A stretch of DNA of 64,000 nucleotides from an uncultured Eudoraea sp. (GTDB lineage: Bacteria; Bacteroidota; Bacteroidia; Flavobacteriales; Flavobacteriaceae): assembly GCF_947490415.1 (NCBI RefSeq), contig NZ_CANLGX010000002.1:620001-684000 (forward strand), in the 5' to 3' direction. The notes beneath the pieces are model-generated. The model worked only from the letters and a program-made list of their open reading frames with translations. It had not been told where the DNA came from and made no database searches. The translations under genes were made by a program, and so were the position numbers. Shown here piece by piece: positions 4,601-15,584 of the stretch; the first letter of the stretch is position 1; each line of letters opens with the position of its first letter.

Positions 4601-4626
4601 CAAAACCCGGTATTTACCGGGTTTTG
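4601..4626 (-). terminator. intrinsic terminator of the SnoaL/barrel cluster
   Basis: Perfect 11-bp inverted repeat (CAAAACCCGGT and its complement) around the 4-nt loop ATTT. Read on the minus strand the stem is followed by a run of T (complement of the A-run at 4596-4600). It lies 67 bp after the stop codon of the gene ending at 4694, and closes the cluster transcribed from 8371 to 4694. Confidence 0.85.
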
Positions 4627-4693: not shown

Positions 4694-5461
4694 TTATTCC
4701 TGTCTGTTTTGAGCATTGACAGTACCGCTCAGTCCGCTTAGGTCTTCTCTAAATGTCCATAATTCTGAACGCTCTCCATTCGTAGCTGCTTCTACGTCTT
4801 TAAGAAATTTCATAAAACTTCCTTCTCCATGTACTTCGTCAAACTTTTTTGGAAAAGTATCTTCACGACCCATCCATCCTGAATTACTAAAGAAATTTAC
4901 AAAAGCCATATCTCGCCCATCCTGGCTATCGGGCATTTCATTGGTATAAACACCATAGGCCTCATCAGGATTTTTTTCCGCATTTACTTTTTTTACTCTT
5001 TCCAGAATACTTATCATTTCAGGGTATTTAAACCGTTTAAAATCTACCATAAACACTGACAAATACTTCAAGTTAAAATCGGCAGAAAAATTGGAGAATT
5101 GTGGATGAAACCTCCAGTAAGTGACGTCGCTCTCGGCTGTTGTATAAGGAACTACATTTTTGCTCCAATCTTCATCATGACCTTCAGCTGCGGGCCTGCT
5201 ATCCATTGCACTCCAGGGCAAAGGTCCCATTGCCCATATATATTTCCCGGCATTTTTCCCATTCGAAATCCAATAAACACGAGCACCATGTGTGCCTTCT
5301 GCATGGTATTTTTTATTGTGTGCCGCTAAACCTGCTTCTAATTCCATGGTTTTTGCAGGAATAGCGGTAAGCATGACATTTTCCATGACCATGTATTCTT
5401 GTTCGCCTTGAGATATTACTAAAAAGGGTAAAAGTAACATCAGATAAAGAAATTTTCTCAT
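4694..5461 (-). CDS. exported ferredoxin-like (alpha/beta barrel) protein, unknown function
   Basis: A 255-residue protein with a signal peptide (MRKFLYLMLLLPFLVISQG). No catalytic family is recognised. The sequence shows two similar halves, each with a beta strand, an amphipathic helix and a Y-W/F rich strand, which suggests a tandem ferredoxin-like (dimeric alpha/beta barrel, NIPSNAP/EthD-like) fold. It resembles the 256-residue product at 7040-7810 in length, signal peptide, and in the pattern KK-H ... KYIWxxxP ... DxxP near residues 45-85. It is the last gene of a five-gene minus-strand cluster of exported proteins. Binding of a small hydrophobic ligand is a possibility drawn only from the fold. 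Sure that it is a real gene, unsure of its role. Confidence 0.75.
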   Translation of the reverse strand: MRKFLYLMLLLPFLVISQGEQEYMVMENVMLTAIPAKTMELEAGLAAHNKKYHAEGTHGARVYWISNGKNAGKYIWAMGPLPWSAMDSRPAAEGHDEDWSKNVVPYTTAESDVTYWRFHPQFSNFSADFNLKYLSVFMVDFKRFKYPEMISILERVKKVNAEKNPDEAYGVYTNEMPDSQDGRDMAFVNFFSNSGWMGREDTFPKKFDEVHGEGSFMKFLKDVEAATNGERSELWTFREDLSGLSGTVNAQNRQE

Positions 5462-5506
5462 TTTGATTATAATTAAAGGTTAGAAATTTATTTTACATTT
5501 TCACTA

Positions 5507-6433
5507 TTAGTTAGCCTTCGGTGGTGTAACTGTGTATCCTAATTGACTCAACATGTCCATATTGTCAAAAAAGGCATCCTCCTGGACTGCTAGTCCGTTA
5601 CTATCAAATGCCCAAACACTGTATCCATGGATCTCCATTTTTTTACCGGTTGGAGGATTGTCCATAAATGGCCCCGTATTAGTTCCAGTACAGGTCCAGT
5701 TTATATAGGACTTTCCGTCTTTTAGAAAATAACTATCCAGGCTTACTTTGAAATCGGGGAATCCGGTATGGAATTGATTCATCATTTCTGTATATTCAGA
5801 CTGATTGTTGGTTTGTCGTGTACCATTCGAATTTCTAATAATGCTAACCGAAGAAAGCGCTTTAAAGGCTTCAGCATCATTATTGTTCCAGGCTTCAATC
5901 ATTTTATCATGATTGGCCATAATGGTTTTTTCGATTTCAGGTGCATTTTTCATCTCTTCAATTTCTTCAAGAGCGTTTTGCATAATGGAGTTATCCCAAA
6001 AACCATTCTCTTGTACTATTTTCCCATTTAAAACATGGACGGAAAGATGCACAGGTAATACAACTACTTTATTATTTTCTTTAAGTGTGCCTTCCCATCT
6101 TCCCCATAAATTAACCCATGTATTCCCTTTATCGCTTAATATTTTTTCATAAATCACATTGTCACCAAATCCGTATGAACTTAATAGCGCAATAGTACTT
6201 TTATGCCCTTCCATAGATTGGGCTACTGTTATACTGTCATCCCATTGGTTGTAGTAGACTTTTGCGGTATCTGCATATTTTTCCTTCCAGCTGTCCCAAT
6301 CCCCATTTTGGTAATCGGCCAGCAAGCCTTTTACTAAATCCACTTCAGGTCCGGAGGTGCTATACCTTTCCGCTTTTTGTTCACAAGCCATAAAAAAGAT
6401 AACGGCAAGTCCTATCAAAAGTATTTTTTTCAT
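5507..6433 (-). CDS. lipoprotein with two SnoaL/NTF2-like domains
   Basis: A 308-residue protein with a lipobox (FFMAC, Cys17). Residues about 25-160 are an NTF2-like domain closely similar to the whole product of 6460-6972 (shared GDWxxW..YADTAKV, SSYGF, KW/TWVNxWGxWEGT, LPVHL/IPVHL, NGKIVxE). Residues about 170-305 are a SnoaL/ester-cyclase-like domain similar to the product of 7856-8371 (FPDxK, NWxCTGxNTG, TGKKxxIxG, LxQLGYTxT). It therefore looks like a fusion of its two relatives in the cluster. SnoaL-like proteins are cyclases, isomerases or ligand binders; no substrate is evident. It should sit on the periplasmic side of a membrane. It lies 26 bp downstream of 6460-6972 on the same strand. 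Confidence 0.8.
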   Translation of the reverse strand: MKKILLIGLAVIFFMACEQKAERYSTSGPEVDLVKGLLADYQNGDWDSWKEKYADTAKVYYNQWDDSITVAQSMEGHKSTIALLSSYGFGDNVIYEKILSDKGNTWVNLWGRWEGTLKENNKVVVLPVHLSVHVLNGKIVQENGFWDNSIMQNALEEIEEMKNAPEIEKTIMANHDKMIEAWNNNDAEAFKALSSVSIIRNSNGTRQTNNQSEYTEMMNQFHTGFPDFKVSLDSYFLKDGKSYINWTCTGTNTGPFMDNPPTGKKMEIHGYSVWAFDSNGLAVQEDAFFDNMDMLSQLGYTVTPPKAN

Positions 6434-6459
6434 TTATTTTAAATTTTAGTTTATGATTA

Positions 6460-6972
6460 TTATTCCATCACATCTTCTTCCTCTGCCATTTCTGATTCAA
6501 TTTTTTGCATTACTGCCATGTATTCCGATAAATCATAGTAGCCATGTTCTTCCACTATTTTACCATTGACAAACTGTAAGGTAAGATGAACCGGTATTAT
6601 GAGTTTTTGATTATTGGCTGCGATAGTTCCTTCCCAGGTTCCCCAAAAATTTACCCACTTCTCTCCTTTATCATCAATCACCATTTCATAGAATATATCC
6701 TTGTCTGTAAATCCATAACTAGATGCACCTGCGAGTAATCCTTTGAGACCTTCTAATAATTCAGCAGGTGTAGAATCTTCGAGCGTGTTATGATGAACTT
6801 TGGCGGTATCTGCGTAATGAGTCATCCAGGCGTTCCAGTCTCCTGCGTTATAATCCTTTACCAGAGCCTTAACTTCATCTATTTCCGGAGATGAGGAGAA
6901 ATATTTTTGTTCCGCATTTTTACAGCTTATAAAAAAGACTGTTGCAACACATAATAAGAGAATTTTTTTCAT
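6460..6972 (-). CDS. SnoaL/NTF2-like lipoprotein (single domain)
   Basis: A 170-residue lipoprotein (signal MKKILLLCVATVFFISC, Cys17) with one NTF2-like domain. It is a paralogue of the N-terminal half of the neighbouring 308-residue protein: signal peptides, the GDWxxWxxxYADTAKV block and the VNFWGTWEGT / NGKIVEEHG blocks line up without large gaps. The C-terminus is acidic (EMAEEEDVME). Function unknown; the fold usually encloses a hydrophobic pocket. The gene is followed after 26 bp by the 308-residue gene and preceded by a stem-loop at 7002-7032 that may set its expression apart from the two upstream genes. Confidence 0.75.
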   Translation of the reverse strand: MKKILLLCVATVFFISCKNAEQKYFSSSPEIDEVKALVKDYNAGDWNAWMTHYADTAKVHHNTLEDSTPAELLEGLKGLLAGASSYGFTDKDIFYEMVIDDKGEKWVNFWGTWEGTIAANNQKLIIPVHLTLQFVNGKIVEEHGYYDLSEYMAVMQKIESEMAEEEDVME

Positions 6973-7001
6973 ATTTTAATTTTTGTGGTTAGTGAAGAGT
7001 A

Positions 7002-7032
7002 AACCCCCAATAATCAAAAATTATTGGGGGTT
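7002..7032 (-). promoter_or_regulatory. strong stem-loop inside the exported-protein cluster
   Basis: Perfect 13-bp arms (AACCCCCAATAAT and complement) around the 5-nt loop CAAAA, starting 7 bp after the stop codon of the gene ending at 7040 and ending 29 bp before the start at 6972. On the minus strand it lacks a good T-run, so it may act as a partial terminator or as an mRNA-stabilising element that tunes the ratio between upstream and downstream genes. The structure is seen; the role is inferred. Confidence 0.55.
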
Positions 7033-7039
7033 ATAGTTT

Positions 7040-7810
7040 TTATTTTGACGGACTGTAGGCCATGTCCGGTCTCATTCTTCCTGAAAATACTTCATATTTT
7101 AACAAATTACTTCTTAGTTCGTTGTATAATTTAGGCCACTCATCACCCAAGAGTTCATTGTTTGAATCTACTTTTGCACTATAGTCTGCTGCGTTTTTTG
7201 CAGCTACCGCTACCATATAAAATTCACCTCTGTTACCGAAACCACTTTTGTAAACCCTGTAATATAATTTTGAGCCTTTACTCGCAAATAAATTTGTTAT
7301 CGCTTCCATATTCTTTTTTACCATAACCCGATTTCCAGGAGTAATATGAAAATAGAAGAATTTACGATAATCTTCGCCTTCAGGTGTTTGAGTTATACCC
7401 TCTGGCATATAAGACAATGCCTTGTCTAAATGTATTATGTAATCCTGTTCAATATCATAACATTCATCCATTCTGTTAAACAAATTGGAAAAGGCCTCTG
7501 AACCCATTTTTTCCATCAGGGTTTTGAATATCGGCTTATCAATATCTGCCATATTTGCAATAGGGGATATCCATAGATACCGGTCATCTTCTGTATTGGT
7601 TACAATGGCATTAAGTTCCTGAATGTTGTGTTTTTTTAGGTTATCCGTTAATTCTTTGCAAATAGACTCGTAATCGGCCACCTTAGAAGGTTTTACTACA
7701 TCCTCATGTATCCAATATGACTGGGAATTACTATCTTCCTGGGCCAGACCTATCGCTCCGGTAAGTAATAGTAAAAATAAACTTGTTAATCCTGTCTTTA
7801 ATGTTCTCAT
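7040..7810 (-). CDS. exported ferredoxin-like (alpha/beta barrel) protein, unknown function
   Basis: A 256-residue protein with a signal peptide (residues 1-23, ending GLAQ). Like the 255-residue product at 4694-5461 it appears to be a tandem ferredoxin-like protein: first half about residues 30-125 (SYWIHEDVVKPSKVADYESI, then RYLWISPI), second half about 145-245 (FYFHITPGNRVMVKKNMEAI, then FYMVAVAA). The 'HxxPG' like start of the second half is typical of small ligand-binding or ABM-type folds, but no enzyme motif is visible. It lies 45-60 bp downstream of the SnoaL-like gene at 7856 and upstream of a strong stem-loop. Function unknown. Confidence 0.75.
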   Translation of the reverse strand: MRTLKTGLTSLFLLLLTGAIGLAQEDSNSQSYWIHEDVVKPSKVADYESICKELTDNLKKHNIQELNAIVTNTEDDRYLWISPIANMADIDKPIFKTLMEKMGSEAFSNLFNRMDECYDIEQDYIIHLDKALSYMPEGITQTPEGEDYRKFFYFHITPGNRVMVKKNMEAITNLFASKGSKLYYRVYKSGFGNRGEFYMVAVAAKNAADYSAKVDSNNELLGDEWPKLYNELRSNLLKYEVFSGRMRPDMAYSPSK

Positions 7811-7855
7811 TGTTAATTCAATTTTAGTTAAACTTATTAAAATATAGTGTTCAAA

Positions 7856-8371
7856 TTATTCAAGTACCGGCGATGTAAGGGTATAGCCCAGTTGTTGCAG
7901 CAGATCCAGTTCGTTATAATAGACGTCTTCCTTATATAATTTTCCTTCTTCATTGAAATAAAGGTGCGAAAGTCCCTGAATCTTAATTTTTTTACCCGTG
8001 GCCCGCATCTCGCCAAACTCTCCGGTATTACTTCCGGTACATTCCCAATTCATAAATATGTTGTTACCTTCAATATACGCATCACTATATTGAATTTTTA
8101 GATCGGGAAAACCTGTAAAATAAACATTCATGTGAGCCGCCATTTCATTTTCATTCCCTGCGACATAAATGCCATTAAGAATTCTGGTAAAATTCTTATC
8201 TACCAATTCATTTAATTTAGAGACATTTTGATCATTCCAGCAAGAATCAATAAACACATTTAAATTATTGGCAAGTTGATCGTTTATAGACAATTCCGAA
8301 TTTTTGTTCACTGGTTTACATGCTGCAATTACAACAAATAAAATTAAAATTTGAATGATAGATTTGGACAT
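7856..8371 (-). CDS. SnoaL/ester-cyclase-like lipoprotein
   Basis: The ATG at 8371 gives a 171-residue lipoprotein (signal MSKSIIQILILFVVIAAC). A GTG at 8383 would add four residues before the signal and is less likely. The domain matches the SnoaL-like polyketide cyclase (ester cyclase) family: FTGFPDLKI, NWECTGSNTGEF, ATGKKIKIQG and the C-terminal DLLQQLGYTLTSP. The same blocks are found in the C-terminal half of the 308-residue protein at 5507-6433. It is the first gene of the five-gene cluster, transcribed away from the TPR-kinase gene at 8578. Chemistry is unknown. Confidence 0.75.
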   Translation of the reverse strand: MSKSIIQILILFVVIAACKPVNKNSELSINDQLANNLNVFIDSCWNDQNVSKLNELVDKNFTRILNGIYVAGNENEMAAHMNVYFTGFPDLKIQYSDAYIEGNNIFMNWECTGSNTGEFGEMRATGKKIKIQGLSHLYFNEEGKLYKEDVYYNELDLLQQLGYTLTSPVLE

Positions 8372-8460
8372 GGTTTTCCACACAAATTAACCGATAAGCG
8401 TTCATTATACCTATGCGGTATGCTAAAGAAGCAAAATATTGGTAAAAATAAAAGTATGTA

Positions 8461-8490
8461 TGGACGAATAGCCCTATTTACTGTCCGAAT
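8461..8490. promoter_or_regulatory. candidate LytTR-type direct repeat in the divergent promoter region
   Basis: TGGACGAAT (8461-8469) and TGTCCGAAT (8482-8490) are imperfect direct repeats (7 of 9 identical) with a 21-bp period, the geometry known for LytTR response-regulator sites (two 9-bp elements about 12 bp apart). They lie between the exported-protein cluster and the kinase/LytTR pair. A separate 15-bp dyad (ATACC-5-GGTAT, 8407-8421) lies closer to the cluster start. Binding is inferred, not shown. Confidence 0.35.
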
Positions 8491-8577
8491 GTCTATTTTC
8501 ACTTAACAAAGCAATTATTATGTTAAAATTTGTATATTTAAAGAATTACATGCCCCCTCGATTATTTCTAAATTAAT

Positions 8578-10539
8578 ATGGTGAACCGATTTTTAACGGT
8601 TTTGGTTTTCTTCATATGTTCATTTTTGAGCCCTAAAATTCTGCAGTCCCAGATTGTAGACTTTCAAAGTGAAAATTCCTACAAAAGAGTATTTGTTGAT
8701 ACGGACAATTTTGGCAGCTCCTATCTCGACATCCTGGAAAAAAGCTACCCATTAATTAAAATTGATACTATCCAATTCAGTATTCTCAATGACCTTGCTT
8801 ATTACTGGCATACAAGGAATTTAACAAAAGCCTTAAGTTTTGCAAAGGAAGGCTTACAAATAACCCGCGAAAAGAATGATAGCCTATGGGAAGGCAGGTT
8901 TCAAATTACGGAGGGTGCTATTCTTTTAAGGATGGAAAAACTAGATAGCGCAAGATTTACCTTAGAATCTGCAATGAAAAAAGTTTTGAAGAAAGACCTG
9001 CCACTGATCTATACTCAGTTGGGATATGTATATGAAAGACAGGGAAAACTGGATAAGGCCGCCGATATTGCTATGGAAACCCTGCTTTTAGGGGATGAAT
9101 TAAAGGATAAAAGAGCAATGGCCGTTGCTTTTAGTGATTTGAGTAATTTATTTTGGAAACAAGCACGCTATGAAAAGGCTTTGGAATATGGATTAAAGTC
9201 CTTAGTTCTTTTTGAAGAAAGAGGAATTAACGACCTGGATTATGATTTTACCCTATATGTGGTTGGGAATTGCTATCTGGCACTGGATAAACATGAAGAA
9301 GCTCTTAATTATTACGAACATTCTACAGCCATTGGTGAGCGATATGGATTTTTTAATAATCTATGCGACGTATATATTTCTATGGTATATCTAAAGGCTT
9401 ACCTGAACGATTTTGATGCAGCAGATCTGGCAGGTGAAAATGCCGTAAAATATGGACAATTATTGGATAATAACTTTATGTTAATGCGCTCATGGTTGTC
9501 CATAGGTAAGCTACAAAACCTACAGGGAAAATACATTTCCGCAATTGAGAGTCTTGAGAGAAGTATTGACATAGCCACAGATAATTTTGGAGATGATTTT
9601 TATCTTAGCCAGGCTTATGAGGCATTGGGTAAAGCCTATGCAGGCAATCACAATTACCGGGAAGCATATCAGGCGTATGCAGAGTACGATAAACTAAAAA
9701 AGGAGATATTTACTGCCGAGGCAGATAAGCATATTTCATTATTACTTACAGAGTTTGATGTAGCTCAAAAAGAGAGTACCATAATGGTCCAGGAAAATCA
9801 AATTAAAAAGCAAAGATCAAGACAGACGCTAATGATTCTTATTGGAGCGCTATTGCTAATGATTTTATTACTCCTGTACAATACCGTACAAACCAATAAG
9901 AAGAAAAACAGATTGCTTAAAAAGCAAAATGACGAAAAAGAATTTTTGCTAAAAGAAATACACCATCGTGTAAAAAATAATTTGGAAATTGTATCAAGTT
10001 TATTATCCCTGCAATCCGAACAGATAGGGGATTCAAAGGTTGCCGACGCTATGCAGAAAAGTCAATATCGAGTTCATAGCATGAGCATGATTCACCAAAA
10101 ACTATATCAGGGTAAAAGTTTTTCATCTATTGAAATGAAAGAATATTTCATGAACCTGGGGAATTATATCATAGATATTTTTGGGGCTTCAGACAGAGTG
10201 CGTATTGTATGTGAGATGGCGGAATTGGAATTGGATGTGGATACTGCTATTCCAATAGGGCTAATAGTAAATGAGTTGCTTACGAATTCTTTAAAATATG
10301 CTTTTCCAGAAAATCGTAATGGGCTCATAAAAATTAGTCTAATAGAATTAGGGAATCATTTGCAGCTTGAGGTGTCAGATGACGGCATAGGAAAAAACTA
10401 TCACGAAAAAATTGAAGGTACGGGCTTTGGTACACAATTAATAGAATTACTAACCAGACAATTAGAAGGTAAAATGTCTTTAAGTATTAAAAAAGGCACA
10501 GCAGTTTCTTTTGAATTTCAAAACCATAAAGCAGCTTAA
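8578..10539 (+). CDS. TPR-containing HisKA_2 sensor histidine kinase
   Basis: A 653-residue protein. It has a signal peptide or N-terminal helix (about 1-25), a periplasmic region of TPR repeats (about 60-380; for example YTQLGYVYERQGKLDKAADIA, written here in part), one membrane helix near 414-436 (MILIGALLLMILLLL), then a HisKA_2 dimerisation domain with HHRVKNN at 462-468 and an HATPase domain (N-box VNELLTNSLKYAF, G-box DDGIG and GTGFG). It should sense an extracytoplasmic signal through the TPRs and phosphorylate the LytTR regulator encoded 2 bp downstream. It is divergent from the SnoaL/barrel cluster, which makes that cluster a plausible target. All catalytic boxes look intact. Confidence 0.9.
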   Translation: MVNRFLTVLVFFICSFLSPKILQSQIVDFQSENSYKRVFVDTDNFGSSYLDILEKSYPLIKIDTIQFSILNDLAYYWHTRNLTKALSFAKEGLQITREKNDSLWEGRFQITEGAILLRMEKLDSARFTLESAMKKVLKKDLPLIYTQLGYVYERQGKLDKAADIAMETLLLGDELKDKRAMAVAFSDLSNLFWKQARYEKALEYGLKSLVLFEERGINDLDYDFTLYVVGNCYLALDKHEEALNYYEHSTAIGERYGFFNNLCDVYISMVYLKAYLNDFDAADLAGENAVKYGQLLDNNFMLMRSWLSIGKLQNLQGKYISAIESLERSIDIATDNFGDDFYLSQAYEALGKAYAGNHNYREAYQAYAEYDKLKKEIFTAEADKHISLLLTEFDVAQKESTIMVQENQIKKQRSRQTLMILIGALLLMILLLLYNTVQTNKKKNRLLKKQNDEKEFLLKEIHHRVKNNLEIVSSLLSLQSEQIGDSKVADAMQKSQYRVHSMSMIHQKLYQGKSFSSIEMKEYFMNLGNYIIDIFGASDRVRIVCEMAELELDVDTAIPIGLIVNELLTNSLKYAFPENRNGLIKISLIELGNHLQLEVSDDGIGKNYHEKIEGTGFGTQLIELLTRQLEGKMSLSIKKGTAVSFEFQNHKAA

Positions 10540-10541
10540 AT

Positions 10542-11279
10542 ATGGATAAGTTAATTAGAATATTAATAGTCGAAGATGATATGATTATTGCGGCTAATCT
10601 TTCATTACAATTAACAAAGTTAGGTTATGAAGTTATTGGTATAGTGTCCAGGGGTGAAGACGCAATTAGTAATGCAAACCAAAATAAACCTGATATTATT
10701 TTGATGGATATAAACCTTAAGGGTCCTATAGATGGAATAGATGCAGCTATTGCTATTCATTTGCAAAATGAAATACCCATAATTTATTTAACTGCTAACA
10801 ATGATGATGGTACTTTTTCCAGGGCAAAGGAAACCCAACCTTATGCTTTTATTTCCAAACCGTTTAACAAATTAAATCTTCAGCGAACTATAGCATTAGT
10901 TGTTGAGCAATTAAAGGATAACGGAAGTTTAAAACAAAATCAGGTCCAAAGTAATTTACAGGTTTTACCAGATCGAATTTTTGTTAGACATAATGGGAGA
11001 ATGGTTAAAATATTATTAGATCATATTCTTTATATTGAGGCAGAACGTAACTATTGCAATATCACAACAGCATTAGGTAAGTATTTGGTTGTAAGCACTT
11101 TAAAAACAATTGAAAATGAATTAAAAGATAGTTGTTTTATACGCGTACACAGGTCATTTATAGTTAACATATGTAAGTTGGATGTTGTAGCCGATAGTCA
11201 TCTCGAGATAGACAGAAAGGTTATTCCTATAAGCAAGTCCTATAAGGAATTTTTACTGGGAAGACTGCACACTATTTAG
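10542..11279 (+). CDS. LytTR-family response regulator
   Basis: A 245-residue protein: receiver domain at about 4-120 with the acidic pair in VEDD, phospho-acceptor Asp56 (ILMDINLKG), Thr in YLTAN and Lys in SKPF, then a LytTR DNA-binding domain at about 143-243 (ILYIEAERNYCNI, FIRVHRSFIVN). The ATG is 2 bp after the kinase stop, so the pair is translationally linked. It should act as a transcription factor binding paired direct repeats. Receiver regulators paired with HisKA_2 kinases and carrying a LytTR domain are common in Bacteroidota. Confidence 0.92.
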   Translation: MDKLIRILIVEDDMIIAANLSLQLTKLGYEVIGIVSRGEDAISNANQNKPDIILMDINLKGPIDGIDAAIAIHLQNEIPIIYLTANNDDGTFSRAKETQPYAFISKPFNKLNLQRTIALVVEQLKDNGSLKQNQVQSNLQVLPDRIFVRHNGRMVKILLDHILYIEAERNYCNITTALGKYLVVSTLKTIENELKDSCFIRVHRSFIVNICKLDVVADSHLEIDRKVIPISKSYKEFLLGRLHTI

Positions 11280-11320: not shown

Positions 11321-11941
11321 TTAATTTTTTTTGCTTTTGCTTTTTTTCATGGCTTCTGCAATGCCGTGCCCACCGCCGGTATTTCGTTTTTCTAGCTCCT
11401 TGATTATTTTGGGATGATCGTGTTCCCGTCCTTGCGACAGCTTATAAGCCGCCTGTATTTCCTTGATATGAATCTCAAAACCTATTACACCTTTCACTTG
11501 CCTGAGTGTGTTTTTTGATAAATTGTTTAGGGAGATTGGTTTTTCGGATTGACGCTCGTATTTGTCAACCAGTTTATGAAGAGAAGCCATCAGCGCCTGC
11601 TCGTCCTGTATTTTTAATTTTCCGTAAATATGCACTGCAATATAATTCCAGGTAGGAACTTCTTCTTCTGCGTACCATGATGAAGAAACATAAGTGTGTG
11701 GCCCGTTAAATATACAAAGTACTTCGGTGTCTTCAACAAAATATTTCCATTGCGGATTTGCTTTTGCGATATGACCTACCAGGATATCATTGCCATTACG
11801 ATCCTTATCTAATTCCAATGGGATATGAGTGGCCCAAGGTTTACCACCTACATAATTAATTAAAATACCAAAGGAATTATTAATAATGAACTCCTTAACT
11901 TCTTTAAGGTTTTCATTTATATAGTGCTGCGGGATATACAT
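11321..11941 (-). CDS. PaiB-like FMN-binding protein
   Basis: A 206-residue protein beginning MYIPQHY, the usual opening of the PaiB family (FMN-binding split-barrel; called negative transcriptional regulator after Bacillus subtilis PaiB). Recognisable blocks are HIPLELD, GHIAKANPQWK, FNGPHTYVSSSWY, VPTWNYIAVHIYGK and GFEIHIKEIQAAYKLSQ. The family binds flavin; several members are now thought to be oxidoreductases or haem-related enzymes rather than repressors. The C-terminus ends in a lysine-rich tail. It is convergent with the LytTR regulator gene and appears monocistronic. The ATG at 11941 is the natural start. Confidence 0.9.
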   Translation of the reverse strand: MYIPQHYINENLKEVKEFIINNSFGILINYVGGKPWATHIPLELDKDRNGNDILVGHIAKANPQWKYFVEDTEVLCIFNGPHTYVSSSWYAEEEVPTWNYIAVHIYGKLKIQDEQALMASLHKLVDKYERQSEKPISLNNLSKNTLRQVKGVIGFEIHIKEIQAAYKLSQGREHDHPKIIKELEKRNTGGGHGIAEAMKKSKSKKN

Positions 11942-12285: not shown

Positions 12286-13617
12286 ATGAGATATTTGGTT
12301 AAGGTTTTTAGAATAGGCCTTTTGGTGGGTTTTGTTTTGTCCGTCATTTTTATCAGCATTGAATTCTTTGCAAACGGGACCGTTGAATTTGATAAGAATT
12401 TATGGGTAGGAGTTGGTTACAATTTTCTCTATTCAATAGTTCTAACGCTAATCAATACTTCTTTTTTTGAGTATTTAAATAAGCGGGTTATTTGGAAAAA
12501 ATACGGCAAATATAGATTGGCAATAGGAGCTGCAGGCAGTGTTGTTTTAACTATGATCGGAATTCTGTGGATACGCATAGTAATTCGAATGGGTTTTGAG
12601 GGAGCGGATTGGGAGGGGTTTCTCTCGGGTGAAAGGGCCATCAATTACTTTATTGCCCTAATAATCACCCTGGTTATAACCATTCTTTTCCACGCCATTT
12701 ATTTTTACAGGTCTTTACAAGACAGGAAAGTAAAGGAACAAAAGATTATTGCAGGAACCGCCTCGGCAAAATTCGATGCTTTAAAGAATCAATTGGATCC
12801 TCATTTTTTGTTTAATAGCCTTAATGTACTTACAAGTTTAATTGAAGAAGATCCTGATCAGGCTCAAAAATTTACAACATCACTATCCAAAGTTTACAGG
12901 TATGTTCTGGAGCAAAAAAATAAGGACCTGGTGACTGTAGACGAGGAACTTCAGTTTGCAAGAACATATATACGGTTACTCAAAATGCGTTTTGAAGACA
13001 GTATTCTGTTTGATATCCCGGACAAATGCAGTAATCCTGAAGCTAAAATAGTCCCCCTTTCTTTGCAATTATTGCTTGAGAATGCAGTAAAACACAATGT
13101 AGTTAGCAGTTCAAGGCCTTTAAACATTAAAGTCTATGAAGAAAATGACGTTTTGGTTATTCAGAATAATTTTCAGGAAAAACAGGTGGTTAAGAAAAGC
13201 AGTGGCGTGGGATTGAGAAATATTCAGCAACGATATTCTATTTTGTCAAATAGGGAAGTCCATATAGATAAAACTGCTGCTTATTTTAAGGTCTCTTTAC
13301 CTATGCTTTCCAAAAAGGTGAGCCTAACCGCCTCACAAGAAACTTATATAAGCGATAAAAGATATCAGAAGGCCAAAGAACGCGTAGAAGCTATTAAGGG
13401 CTTCTATGGGAATTTAACAGCTTACTGTATTGTAATTCCTTTATTGATATGGTTGAATTTAAGGTCGAGCAGTTTTCCATGGGCCATCTTTCCTGCACTG
13501 GGATGGGGTTTTGGTCTCACGATACACGGGATGGAGGCTTTTGGCTATAATCCTTTATGGGGAAAAAGTTGGGAAGAAAAAAAGATAAAGGAGCTCATGG
13601 ATGATGATAAATTTTAA
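12286..13617 (+). CDS. LytS/YehU-type sensor histidine kinase with C-terminal 2TM domain
   Basis: A 443-residue membrane kinase. Four helices lie at about 8-28, 43-65, 78-100 and 120-147, followed by a His_kinase domain with the phospho-acceptor His173 in LDPHFLFNSLN, and an HATPase with ENAVKHNV and the glycine motif SSGVGLRNI. After about residue 345 a second module begins, with RYQKAKERVEAIKGFYGNLTAY... and NPLWGKSWEEKKIKELM: this is a 2TM domain, the same domain as in the three small genes that follow. The kinase presumably phosphorylates the LytTR regulator at 14829-15584. Fusion of 2TM to such a kinase is seen in Bacteroidota, and its role is not established. Confidence 0.9.
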   Translation: MRYLVKVFRIGLLVGFVLSVIFISIEFFANGTVEFDKNLWVGVGYNFLYSIVLTLINTSFFEYLNKRVIWKKYGKYRLAIGAAGSVVLTMIGILWIRIVIRMGFEGADWEGFLSGERAINYFIALIITLVITILFHAIYFYRSLQDRKVKEQKIIAGTASAKFDALKNQLDPHFLFNSLNVLTSLIEEDPDQAQKFTTSLSKVYRYVLEQKNKDLVTVDEELQFARTYIRLLKMRFEDSILFDIPDKCSNPEAKIVPLSLQLLLENAVKHNVVSSSRPLNIKVYEENDVLVIQNNFQEKQVVKKSSGVGLRNIQQRYSILSNREVHIDKTAAYFKVSLPMLSKKVSLTASQETYISDKRYQKAKERVEAIKGFYGNLTAYCIVIPLLIWLNLRSSSFPWAIFPALGWGFGLTIHGMEAFGYNPLWGKSWEEKKIKELMDDDKF

Positions 13618-13754
13618 TCAATGATGCCTCCAAGATTTTAAACAACAATTCGTCATCAAAATATTACAGTTGAGACTAATAATTTTAGAATTTTTGCCAA
13701 CATTTCGGAATTTTAAACTGTATTTAATATAACGACATGTATAAAATTGAAATC

Positions 13755-14036
13755 ATGAATAATAGTAGTAAAGAAGCAAGTTTTTTAAGAGCAAAACAAC
13801 AGGTAACGGCAATAAAACATTTCTATTTAAGCCTGGTTTTATACTGTATTGTAATCCCAATACTAATTTGGATAAATTATCAGACGACCAGTTTTCCCTG
13901 GGCCGTATTTCCTGCCCTAGGTTGGGGTTTTGGACTGGTGGCAAAAGGTTTAGCTGTCCATGGAATTAATCCTTTGTGGGGTAAGGTGTGGGAACAGAGG
14001 AAAATACAGGAATTAATGAGGAAAGAGGATTTTTAG
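13755..14036 (+). CDS. 2TM domain-containing small membrane protein
   Basis: The ATG at 13755 gives a 93-residue protein (MNNSSKEASFLRAKQQV...); an ATG at 13737 would add six residues and is less like its paralogues. Two membrane helices (about 25-45 and 52-75) lie between a basic N-terminal helix (RAKQQVTAIKHFYL) and a C-terminal motif NPLWGKVWEQRKIQELM. It is especially close to the 2TM domain at the end of the kinase (YCIVIP, SSFPWA/TTSFPWA, FPALGWGFGL), suggesting a recent duplication. Topology and function in signalling are inferred from location only. Confidence 0.8.
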   Translation: MNNSSKEASFLRAKQQVTAIKHFYLSLVLYCIVIPILIWINYQTTSFPWAVFPALGWGFGLVAKGLAVHGINPLWGKVWEQRKIQELMRKEDF

Positions 14037-14117
14037 CCTTTTTCCATTGATAAGTTTATGATTTATATAAATTAAATAATATGGAAAGGATAATTACTAA
14101 CCAAAAATATAAGTGTC

Positions 14118-14420
14118 ATGGAAAATTTTAATAAAGAAACAAAATATCTGAGAGCCAAAGAACGCGTGGAAAAACTTAAAAAATTCTACGGAAATCTCTT
14201 ATCATATGTACTCGTAATAGCTCTTTTGGCTGGGATTAATTATTGGACTAATGAATGGCGGTATATGTGGTTTTTATGGGCTGCCTTTGGATGGGGAATC
14301 GGAATTGTTTTTCAGGCCATTCAGATTTTTAATATAAATCCTTTTTTTGGGAGGGATTGGGAAGAGCGCAAGATAAAGGAGATAATGCGCGATGAAGAAC
14401 AGCAAAACAGATGGGAGTAA
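14118..14420 (+). CDS. 2TM domain-containing small membrane protein
   Basis: A 100-residue protein with the same plan as its neighbours: RAKERVEKLKKFYGNLLSY at the N-terminus, two helices (about 27-45 and 52-75), and NPFFGRDWEERKIKEIM near the C-terminus. It lies 81 bp after the previous 2TM gene and 30 bp before the next. The conserved basic N-terminal helix and acidic/basic C-terminal helix would both face the cytoplasm. No enzymatic motif is present. Confidence 0.8.
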   Translation: MENFNKETKYLRAKERVEKLKKFYGNLLSYVLVIALLAGINYWTNEWRYMWFLWAAFGWGIGIVFQAIQIFNINPFFGRDWEERKIKEIMRDEEQQNRWE

Positions 14421-14450
14421 AAATTAGTAGAATATTAAATAATAAAAGAA

Positions 14451-14762
14451 ATGGAGAATGACAACAAGTTAAACAGAGCTAAAAAGAAAGTAGAAGAGAT
14501 GAAAGGGTTTTACATTCATCTTGCAGTTTATATTGTGATTAATGCTTTTATTCTCGCTAATGTTTATATGAGGACTCTTGGAGATGGGGAGAGTTTTTGG
14601 AAATTTTCCACTTTTTTCACCCCCATATTCTGGGGAATTGGAGTAGTGTTTCATGCAGCTCATGTATTTAATTATAATCCTTTCTTTGGCAAAAGTTGGG
14701 AAGAACGGCAGATTCAAAAATACATTGACAAAGACAAACGTGAAGCAGAAAAGTTTAAATAA
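14451..14762 (+). CDS. 2TM domain-containing small membrane protein
   Basis: A 103-residue protein, third stand-alone 2TM copy. N-terminal RAKKKVEEMKGFYIHLAVYI, helices at about 20-40 and 55-78, then HAAHVFNYNPFFGKSWEERQIQKYI. It differs more from the kinase-attached copy than the first does. The order kinase-2TM, 2TM, 2TM, 2TM, LytTR regulator on one strand with short gaps suggests one regulon or transcript. Confidence 0.8.
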   Translation: MENDNKLNRAKKKVEEMKGFYIHLAVYIVINAFILANVYMRTLGDGESFWKFSTFFTPIFWGIGVVFHAAHVFNYNPFFGKSWEERQIQKYIDKDKREAEKFK

Positions 14763-14828: not shown

Positions 14829-15584
14829 ATGAACGTATTAATTATTGAGGATGAAAAACCTGCGGCAAGACGTTTAGCCCGATTGTTAAATGAACTGGAT
14901 GTTCAGGTAGCTACCATGCTTCATTCAGTTGAAGAATCTGTTGAATGGTTTCAGAACAATGATCATCCTGATTTGATTTTCCTCGATATTCAGCTTTCCG
15001 ATGGTTTGTCTTTTGAAATTTTTGATTTGGTTGAGGTAAAAAGCGCTATCATTTTTACCACAGCTTATGATGAATATGCTCTTCAGGCTTTTAAACTTAA
15101 CAGTATTGATTATCTTCTAAAACCCATTGACGATGAAGAGTTAGAAAGTGCGGTTATAAAATATCAAAATCTGAAACCGGACCATAATCAATTAAGCCTG
15201 GATTTTGAGGATATTAAAAAATTACTTGTCAACCCACTTGAAAGAGAATACAAAAAAAGATTCACTATTCGACTTGGACAGCATTTGAAAATTATCAATG
15301 CCGATGAAATTGAATGTTTCTATAGCGAAAATAAAGGTACGTATGCATCAACTACAGAAGGAAGAAACTATCTTTTGGATACTACATTAGAAAACCTTGA
15401 GAATGAATTATCACCTCAAATATTCTTTAGAGTGAGCAGAAAATTCTATATCAATATCAATCACATAAAAGACATTGTTTCTTACACCAATTCTCGCCTG
15501 ATAATCAAGTTGAATCGCTATAATGAGCAGGAAATAATAGTAAGTAGGGAAAGGGTAAAAGATTTTAAGTTATGGTTAGAATAA
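14829..15584 (+). CDS. LytTR-family response regulator
   Basis: A 251-residue regulator: receiver domain at about 1-118 (acidic EDEK, phospho-acceptor Asp53 in IFLDIQLSDG, TTAYDEYALQAFKLNSIDYLLKP), then a LytTR domain at about 145-250 (RLGQHLKIINADEIECFYSENKGTY in part, FFRVSRKFYININHIKDI). This is the standard AlgR/LytR-like architecture that pairs with LytS/YehU kinases such as the product of 12286-13617. It is 66 bp downstream of the last 2TM gene on the same strand. Not the same subtype as the regulator at 10542, which pairs with a HisKA_2 kinase. Confidence 0.92.
   Translation: MNVLIIEDEKPAARRLARLLNELDVQVATMLHSVEESVEWFQNNDHPDLIFLDIQLSDGLSFEIFDLVEVKSAIIFTTAYDEYALQAFKLNSIDYLLKPIDDEELESAVIKYQNLKPDHNQLSLDFEDIKKLLVNPLEREYKKRFTIRLGQHLKIINADEIECFYSENKGTYASTTEGRNYLLDTTLENLENELSPQIFFRVSRKFYININHIKDIVSYTNSRLIIKLNRYNEQEIIVSRERVKDFKLWLE

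Follow-up and report, generated by a model that had tools for sequence, protein, structure and literature searches.

A five-gene exported cluster of Eudoraea as the probable hub of a LytTR two-component regulon

Results

A five-gene cluster faces a divergent kinase–regulator pair

A 64,000-nucleotide stretch from an uncultured Eudoraea sp. (GCF_947490415.1, NZ_CANLGX010000002.1, positions 620,001–684,000 of the forward strand; hereafter the window, in whose numbering positions are given) carries a minus-strand cluster of five genes, which is probably the hub of a LytTR two-component regulon of exported proteins that handle small molecules. The more far-reaching findings concern the surroundings of the cluster and were missed in the initial annotation: a sensor kinase and a LytTR regulator are encoded divergently, an operator lies between them and the cluster, and a regulon extends across the genome. 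The binding of the regulator, its signal and the chemistry it would govern are proposed here from sequence. The cluster encodes, in minus-strand order, a free SnoaL-like lipoprotein (S), an exported barrel-family protein (B1), an NTF2-like lipoprotein (N), a two-domain lipoprotein (F) joining an N-type half to a SnoaL half, and a second exported barrel-family protein (B2). The initial annotation had proposed these five open reading frames (ORFs), the export of their products and their domain identities. The positions were confirmed by an ORF check, and signal-type starts are visible by eye (lipoprotein-type in F, N and S, cleavable-signal-like in B1 and B2). The domain identities are borne out by Pfam: the second half of F (80.6 bits, E 1.1e-22) and S (70.5 bits) exceed the SnoaL PF07366 cut-off of 28.4, while N falls below it (25.8 bits) and exceeds that of SnoaL_2 (35.9 vs 27). 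BLAST gives no significant mutual similarity between N and S. An alternative GTG start of S lies upstream at 8383; the lipoprotein reads from the ATG at 8371.

The kinase and regulator are adjacent ORFs, and the regulator joins a receiver to a LytTR DNA-binding domain, two features of a LytTR two-component system. Both ORFs are divergent from the S cluster. S is divergent from the kinase in 23 of the 27 S loci. The other four were not scored as divergent: L067 and L075 lie at locus ends, the kinase of L143 is on the same strand, and L158 fails the strict rule because its kinase ORF, called from the first possible start, extends up to S.

The intergenic operator consists of three in-phase repeats

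The pattern TTCGGACA-N13-TTCGTCC, with at most one mismatch, occurs in 20 of 23 divergent kinase–S spacers, and the spacers of L086, L103 and L163 contain weaker versions recognizable by eye. Alignment of 37 sites anchored on this pattern revealed an extra block, TTCGnTAA, exactly 21 bp upstream, which had not been used in their selection; the TTCG match there is 0.80, against 0.38 at the next best of 40 offsets. Downstream, the anchored sites share a T-rich region at +36 to +38 and TTnnTTnG at +59 to +66. The operator thus appears as three in-phase repeats located just upstream of a promoter-like pair, which resembles the flavobacterial –7 box, given as TAnnTTTG in PMC9723704. Direct repeats with a 21-bp period upstream of promoter-like boxes also agree with the LytTR yardstick taken from PMC6193735. 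Scanning the window with up to three mismatches returned a single match, against a chance mean of 1.05, and this match is exact. A search of the viral contigs for the triple pattern gave no exact match.

The same operator precedes related genes elsewhere in the source genome

In the source genome, three exact and four one-mismatch core sites were found, against 0.003 and 0.17 expected, respectively; the nine two-mismatch matches (3.9 expected) likely include chance ones. At up to three mismatches, the pattern read backwards gives more matches (142) than the pattern itself (92), and the evidence was therefore taken from the exact and one-mismatch sites and from a longer model, R1, whose 30 training sites (six of them at Eudoraea-type loci) all belong to other genomes. 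R1 detected 13 sites at E ≤ 0.021, the next candidate having an E of 0.063. In 8 of the 12 sites beyond the window, the first gene encodes a barrel, barrel-like or NTF2-like protein (Table 1). All three B2-like genes of the genome lie behind an operator, counting the window B2 with the S cluster. None of the R1 sites of the source genome precedes the B1 paralogue at C3:49592. TPR-guanylate cyclases (PF00211) follow operator-preceded short genes at L134:430–2289 and L232:3455–5281, and a nucleotide signal may therefore belong to the response.

Table 1. Features of the window and predicted R1 targets of the source genome
Feature	Position	Strand	Remarks
S, free SnoaL-like lipoprotein	7856–8371	–	PF07366, E 1.5e-19
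B1, exported barrel-family protein	7040–7810	–	profile kinship to B2
N, NTF2-like lipoprotein	6460–6972	–	PF12680 (SnoaL_2), E 1.2e-8
F, two-domain lipoprotein, 308 aa	5507–6433	–	N-type half (residues 1–160) and SnoaL half
B2, exported protein	4694–5461	–	two predicted ferredoxin-like repeats
Operator	8461–8510	–	three TTCG half-sites, 21 bp apart; core 8462–8489 exact
Promoter-like elements	8423–8456	–	T-rich –33 region and –7-like box TTCTTTAG at 8423–8430; fixed distance below operator
Terminator-like hairpin, B1–N spacer	7002–7032	–	
Terminator-like hairpin downstream of B2	4601–4626	–	
Sensor kinase	8578–10539	+	export signal (by eye), TPR repeats, HisKA_2 (E 1.7e-26), HATPase_c
Response regulator	10542–11279	+	receiver PF00072 (E 2e-21), LytTR PF04397 (E 5.1e-17)
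R1 targets: two B2 paralogues and one further B-family protein			253 aa (further protein)
R1 targets: three members of the second exported family			254, 259 and 267 aa
R1 target: NTF2-like lipoprotein			167 aa; SnoaL_2 below cut-off
R1 target: exported tandem NTF2-like protein			309 aa
R1 target: methyltransferase, then small ABM-like protein			ABM-like by eye, no Pfam match
R1 targets: two short proteins			each followed by a TPR-guanylate cyclase
R1 target: membrane-type protein			205 aa

Operator and kinase co-occur across the family

Among 149 genomes of the family, the operator is present in 34 (89 sites) and the kinase in 33; 32 contain both and 114 neither (Fisher p 5e-29, a value that overstates the association because related genomes are not independent). 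In 29 of the 32, operator and kinase are no more than 1.5 kb apart; this distance and the co-occurrence test take one site per genome. The two operator-only genomes are G031, with a regulator relative at the site, and G047, with a weaker kinase and a regulator (L143); G111 has the kinase only. In a sample of 296 genomes of the phylum, 10 have sites, two of them from other families of the class. The sites of G483 lie near a kinase–regulator pair and NTF2-like genes, and in G418 one stands ahead of a B2 relative.

First genes were surveyed at 57 sites away from the window (56 of the 89, plus one R1 site), 56 of which are followed by an ORF; the 33 omitted sites lie mostly at the kinase locus. 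By clustering, 24 of the 56 first genes group with the barrel, second exported or NTF2-like/SnoaL families (11 B, 6 second exported family, 6 NTF2-like and 1 S). A direct search assigned 20 of the 56 to these families, compared with 2 of 230 control ORFs. Signal-like starts, scored with a simple rule of our own, were found in 42 of the 56 and in 75 of the 230 controls. With 18 sites, G025 (L264 to L277) has the most of the 149 genomes and would be suited to defining the regulon; its list of first genes is broader, with short-chain dehydrogenases/reductases (SDRs), an O-methyltransferase, a cupin-like protein and TPR proteins, named partly by recognition.

Gene order and the core pair

The initial annotation had called for a search for the five-gene order in related genomes. 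The closest named loci belong to Eudoraea or a close relative (L065 to L069 and L074), and the order S-B1-N-F-B2 recurs in four of them, L065 to L068. L069 is without F, and L074 without N and F; G104, of the same genus, has S-B1-N at this locus (L098) without F and B2. In a wider comparison, 52 strong B1 loci were found in 50 of the 149 genomes, and at least 35 of them have an N-type or F gene on the same strand within 300 bp. This adjacency count was made from 71 hand-copied rows and is a lower bound, because several rows with internal stops, rows with the SnoaL half only and unlisted weak rows were omitted. Four further B1 loci have an N-type or F gene within 5 kb, and 13 of the 52 have none in the rows used. 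Relatives of N, F and B1 also occur away from the kinase, at L148, L152, L154 to L157, L159, L160 and L161. At L148, L152, L154 to L157 and L159, F and B1 are flanked by housekeeping genes resembling rsmD and dnaX, as named by recognition.

The clusters of other genera contain an O-methyltransferase (PF00891) and, by recognition, SDR, RidA-like and cupin proteins. Beside F in the G289 cluster, L149:4622–5515 encodes a member of the intradiol dioxygenase family (PF00775, E 3.3e-25) with an export-type start, which may be a hint at catechol-type chemistry.

The terminator-like hairpin in the B1–N spacer is found in all six Eudoraea-type spacers, the window included, and is absent from G104; because of it, the five genes possibly form more than one transcript. 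A hairpin similar to that downstream of B2 is also present in the post-B2 sequences of the relatives compared. As the window contains a single site, N-F-B2 lack an operator of their own; together with the preceding hairpin, this points to weaker read-through or to separate regulation.

F as a probable ancient fusion of two types of cup

The initial annotation described F as equal to the sum of its neighbours. In domain content this holds, as BLAST aligned residues 1–160 of F with N (48% identity over 160 residues, E 9e-53) and the SnoaL half with S (36% over 125 residues, E 5e-30). In descent it does not, as trees reject a local origin. Grouping the SnoaL half of Eudoraea F with Eudoraea S was rejected (p 1.9e-121, log-likelihood 103 worse), and grouping its N half with Eudoraea N was rejected more weakly (p 0.024). 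A single clade of all fused N halves was also rejected (p 3.6e-5), while the tree test does not reject one of all fused SnoaL halves (p 0.067). L075 was left out of the trees because its identical proteins duplicate L150. F-type fusions occur in 18 of 299 Flavobacteriaceae genomes. F is probably an old fusion that places two cup types on one lipid anchor, and no recent product of its neighbours; its SnoaL half may represent one lineage, the N half having been freed or exchanged more than once. This lineage illustrates the shuffling of NTF2-like cups. Another NTF2-like kind, D3, was observed at L087:6741–7634, L158:6771–7673 and L095:10128–11006, fused to N in two cases and to a SnoaL-type domain in the third. 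As judged from these domain arrangements, the D3 fusions are domain swapping among the cups.

The predicted structure of F contains two NTF2-like domains (pLDDT 89.8, pTM 0.56), whose relative placement is not fixed in the model, which speaks neither for nor against a pseudo-dimer of the two; the structural matches found concern mostly the SnoaL half. The catalytic Asp of SnoaL lies near the last strand. In the alignment with SnoL (8r2b), the Asp of the EHWD motif falls on an Ala in F, a departure from what a SnoaL cyclase would retain.

B1 and B2 form one barrel family

B1 and B2 show no significant similarity by BLAST. A first comparison with small profiles gave a probability of 25.9% and left their kinship unsettled; larger profiles gave 94.9% (E 4.5e-8), with four control families below 1%. 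By profile comparison, B1 and B2 are one family. Iterated profiles merged the two, and this merge was set aside. Neither protein has a Pfam family above cut-off or a Pfam ABM match at E ≤ 1. The model of B2 and its structural matches predict two β-α-β-β-α-β repeats in a tandem ferredoxin-like (dimeric α/β) barrel fold, which B1 would share through profile kinship to B2 alone. Against solved structures, the B2 profile gave no match and the B1 profile weak ones (best E 0.046). The sequence HNKKYHAE (B2 residues 48–55; window 5297–5320) is invariant in all 20 aligned B2 proteins, and both B2 paralogues of the source genome retain HNxKYHxEG, making it a candidate metal- or ligand-binding motif. 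The second exported family, found among the R1 targets, has a profile probability of 70% to B1 and 83% to B2.

Neighbouring genes

Past the regulator, 11321–11941 encodes a 206-residue protein with relatives in 12 of 39 mapped loci, which presumably resembles an FMN-binding (PaiB-type) protein. A second LytTR-like regulator, 27% like that of the hub, is encoded at 14829–15584. Close by on the plus strand (12286–14700) lie genes for a series of small two-segment membrane proteins and for a kinase-like protein.

Discussion

The most likely working of the system can be outlined. The TPR part of the kinase would sense an envelope signal, and the phosphorylated LytTR regulator would bind the triple repeat and activate S-B1 and the unlinked targets; N-F-B2 might be reached by read-through past the hairpin or from another promoter. 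The products, lipoproteins or soluble exported proteins, have two folds, the NTF2-like cup and the tandem ferredoxin-like barrel. Both are typical of enzymes that need no cofactor and of proteins that bind small hydrophobic or aromatic molecules. Most likely these proteins would bind such a molecule and change it chemically outside the cytoplasm, assisted in some genera by enzymes and other proteins encoded alongside them (O-methyltransferases, dehydrogenases, RidA-like and cupin proteins). The common role earlier proposed for the five genes gains support from their same-strand clustering and the operator shared within the regulon. The handling of small hydrophobic ligands, also suggested there, fits the folds and is still a conjecture; the enzymes in other genera's clusters lean toward aromatic chemistry, short of proof. 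In its broadest form, a TPR-sensor/LytTR system would command, via the triple-repeat operator, a variable exported array of cofactor-free NTF2-like and tandem-barrel proteins with repeatedly fused and swapped domains, dedicated to extracytoplasmic modification of small, perhaps aromatic or antibiotic, molecules. Roughly one in five of the Flavobacteriaceae sampled would carry it, as would some neighbouring families. We propose this full statement tentatively, its chances falling a little short of even.

Several observations weigh against the regulon as proposed. Besides the relatedness of the genomes compared, the source genome encodes further LytTR-like regulators (15 matches including the regulator itself, the next best 34% identical), and another of these could therefore bind the operator. 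Relatives of N, F and B1 distant from the kinase would be able to work without it. Most first genes of G025 are, by their sequences, of other kinds, the profiles link the second exported family only weakly to the barrels, and the alignment of F places an Ala at the presumed catalytic position.

This last point also suits a different role, in which cups and barrels would be ligand carriers or co-sensors and no enzymes, with S presenting a small molecule to the TPR domain of the kinase and the rest tuning ligand level or transport. The position of S divergent from the kinase and the export signals are likewise consistent with it. We nevertheless regard this role as rather unlikely, as the clusters of other genera add PF00891, PF00775, SDR, RidA-like and cupin proteins, and the majority of targets are not beside the kinase. 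The cluster could also be a loosely assembled neighbourhood of small exported genes that were copied recently, sharing a regulator through proximity and forming no pathway, with F as one more shuffled NTF2-like protein. Target lists and neighbours do vary among genera, domain shuffling is common and the G025 targets are diverse. The same site, however, stands ahead of targets from different families, and B1 adjoins N-type or F genes in most of its loci, also away from the kinase, which makes mere proximity an unlikely explanation.

A third alternative concerns the conserved element itself, which might be the promoter of an extracytoplasmic function (ECF) sigma factor, with –35/–10 boxes like GGACA-N15-CGTCC, and no LytTR operator. 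The 15-bp gap between GGACA and CGTCC does resemble that of ECF-type promoters. Flavobacterium psychrophilum has an ECF-type motif with a CGT box according to PMC9723704. We consider it improbable and rank it low because of the third repeat, in phase 21 bp upstream, and the –7-like box at a fixed distance below; the site also accompanies a LytTR two-component system. With the regulon interpretation, what was a loose group of hypothetical exported proteins becomes a defined regulon that can be tested, with a candidate sensor, a readable operator that predicts targets genome by genome, and a barrel family absent from Pfam. The inducing signal, once found, would point to a function for many exported flavobacterial proteins that lack annotation.

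No published description of the cluster, the triple operator or the regulon was found in the literature searched. Taken singly, the LytTR system, the SnoaL fold and the tandem barrel are all of known kinds, while the combination, with the triple operator and the regulon, is new to that literature. In contrast to the SnoaL-like polyketide cyclases (PF07366; SnoaL, SnoaL2, AknH), the proteins described here are exported lipoproteins, and the SnoaL domain of F has Ala in the column of the presumed catalytic Asp and is fused to a second NTF2-like domain. The polyether epoxide hydrolases MonBI–MonBII also comprise two NTF2-like partners, and the alignment with 9kw6 spans F residues 26–300; the superposition of both domains is poor (root-mean-square deviation 14.8), and the domain placement is not fixed in the F model. 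Compared with known tandem ferredoxin-like barrels (sulfur oxygenase reductase, the putative monooxygenase 3mcs and PenE), the present barrels are exported, share 6 to 11% identity, lack a Pfam ABM match and have an invariant motif of their own. LytTR and kinase mutations, of this or of another system, are described for coevolved Flavobacterium johnsoniae in PMC10197871. The closest parallel to the operator is provided by HdrR and BrsR of Streptococcus mutans, whose operators, according to PMC6193735, contain 9-bp direct repeats mostly 12 bp apart and 4–11 bp above the –35 element. As here, the repeat period is 21 bp and the site lies just upstream of the promoter, whereas the Eudoraea system has three repeats, a different sequence with a TTCG core, a receiver–LytTR regulator paired with a kinase, and predominantly exported cup and barrel targets.

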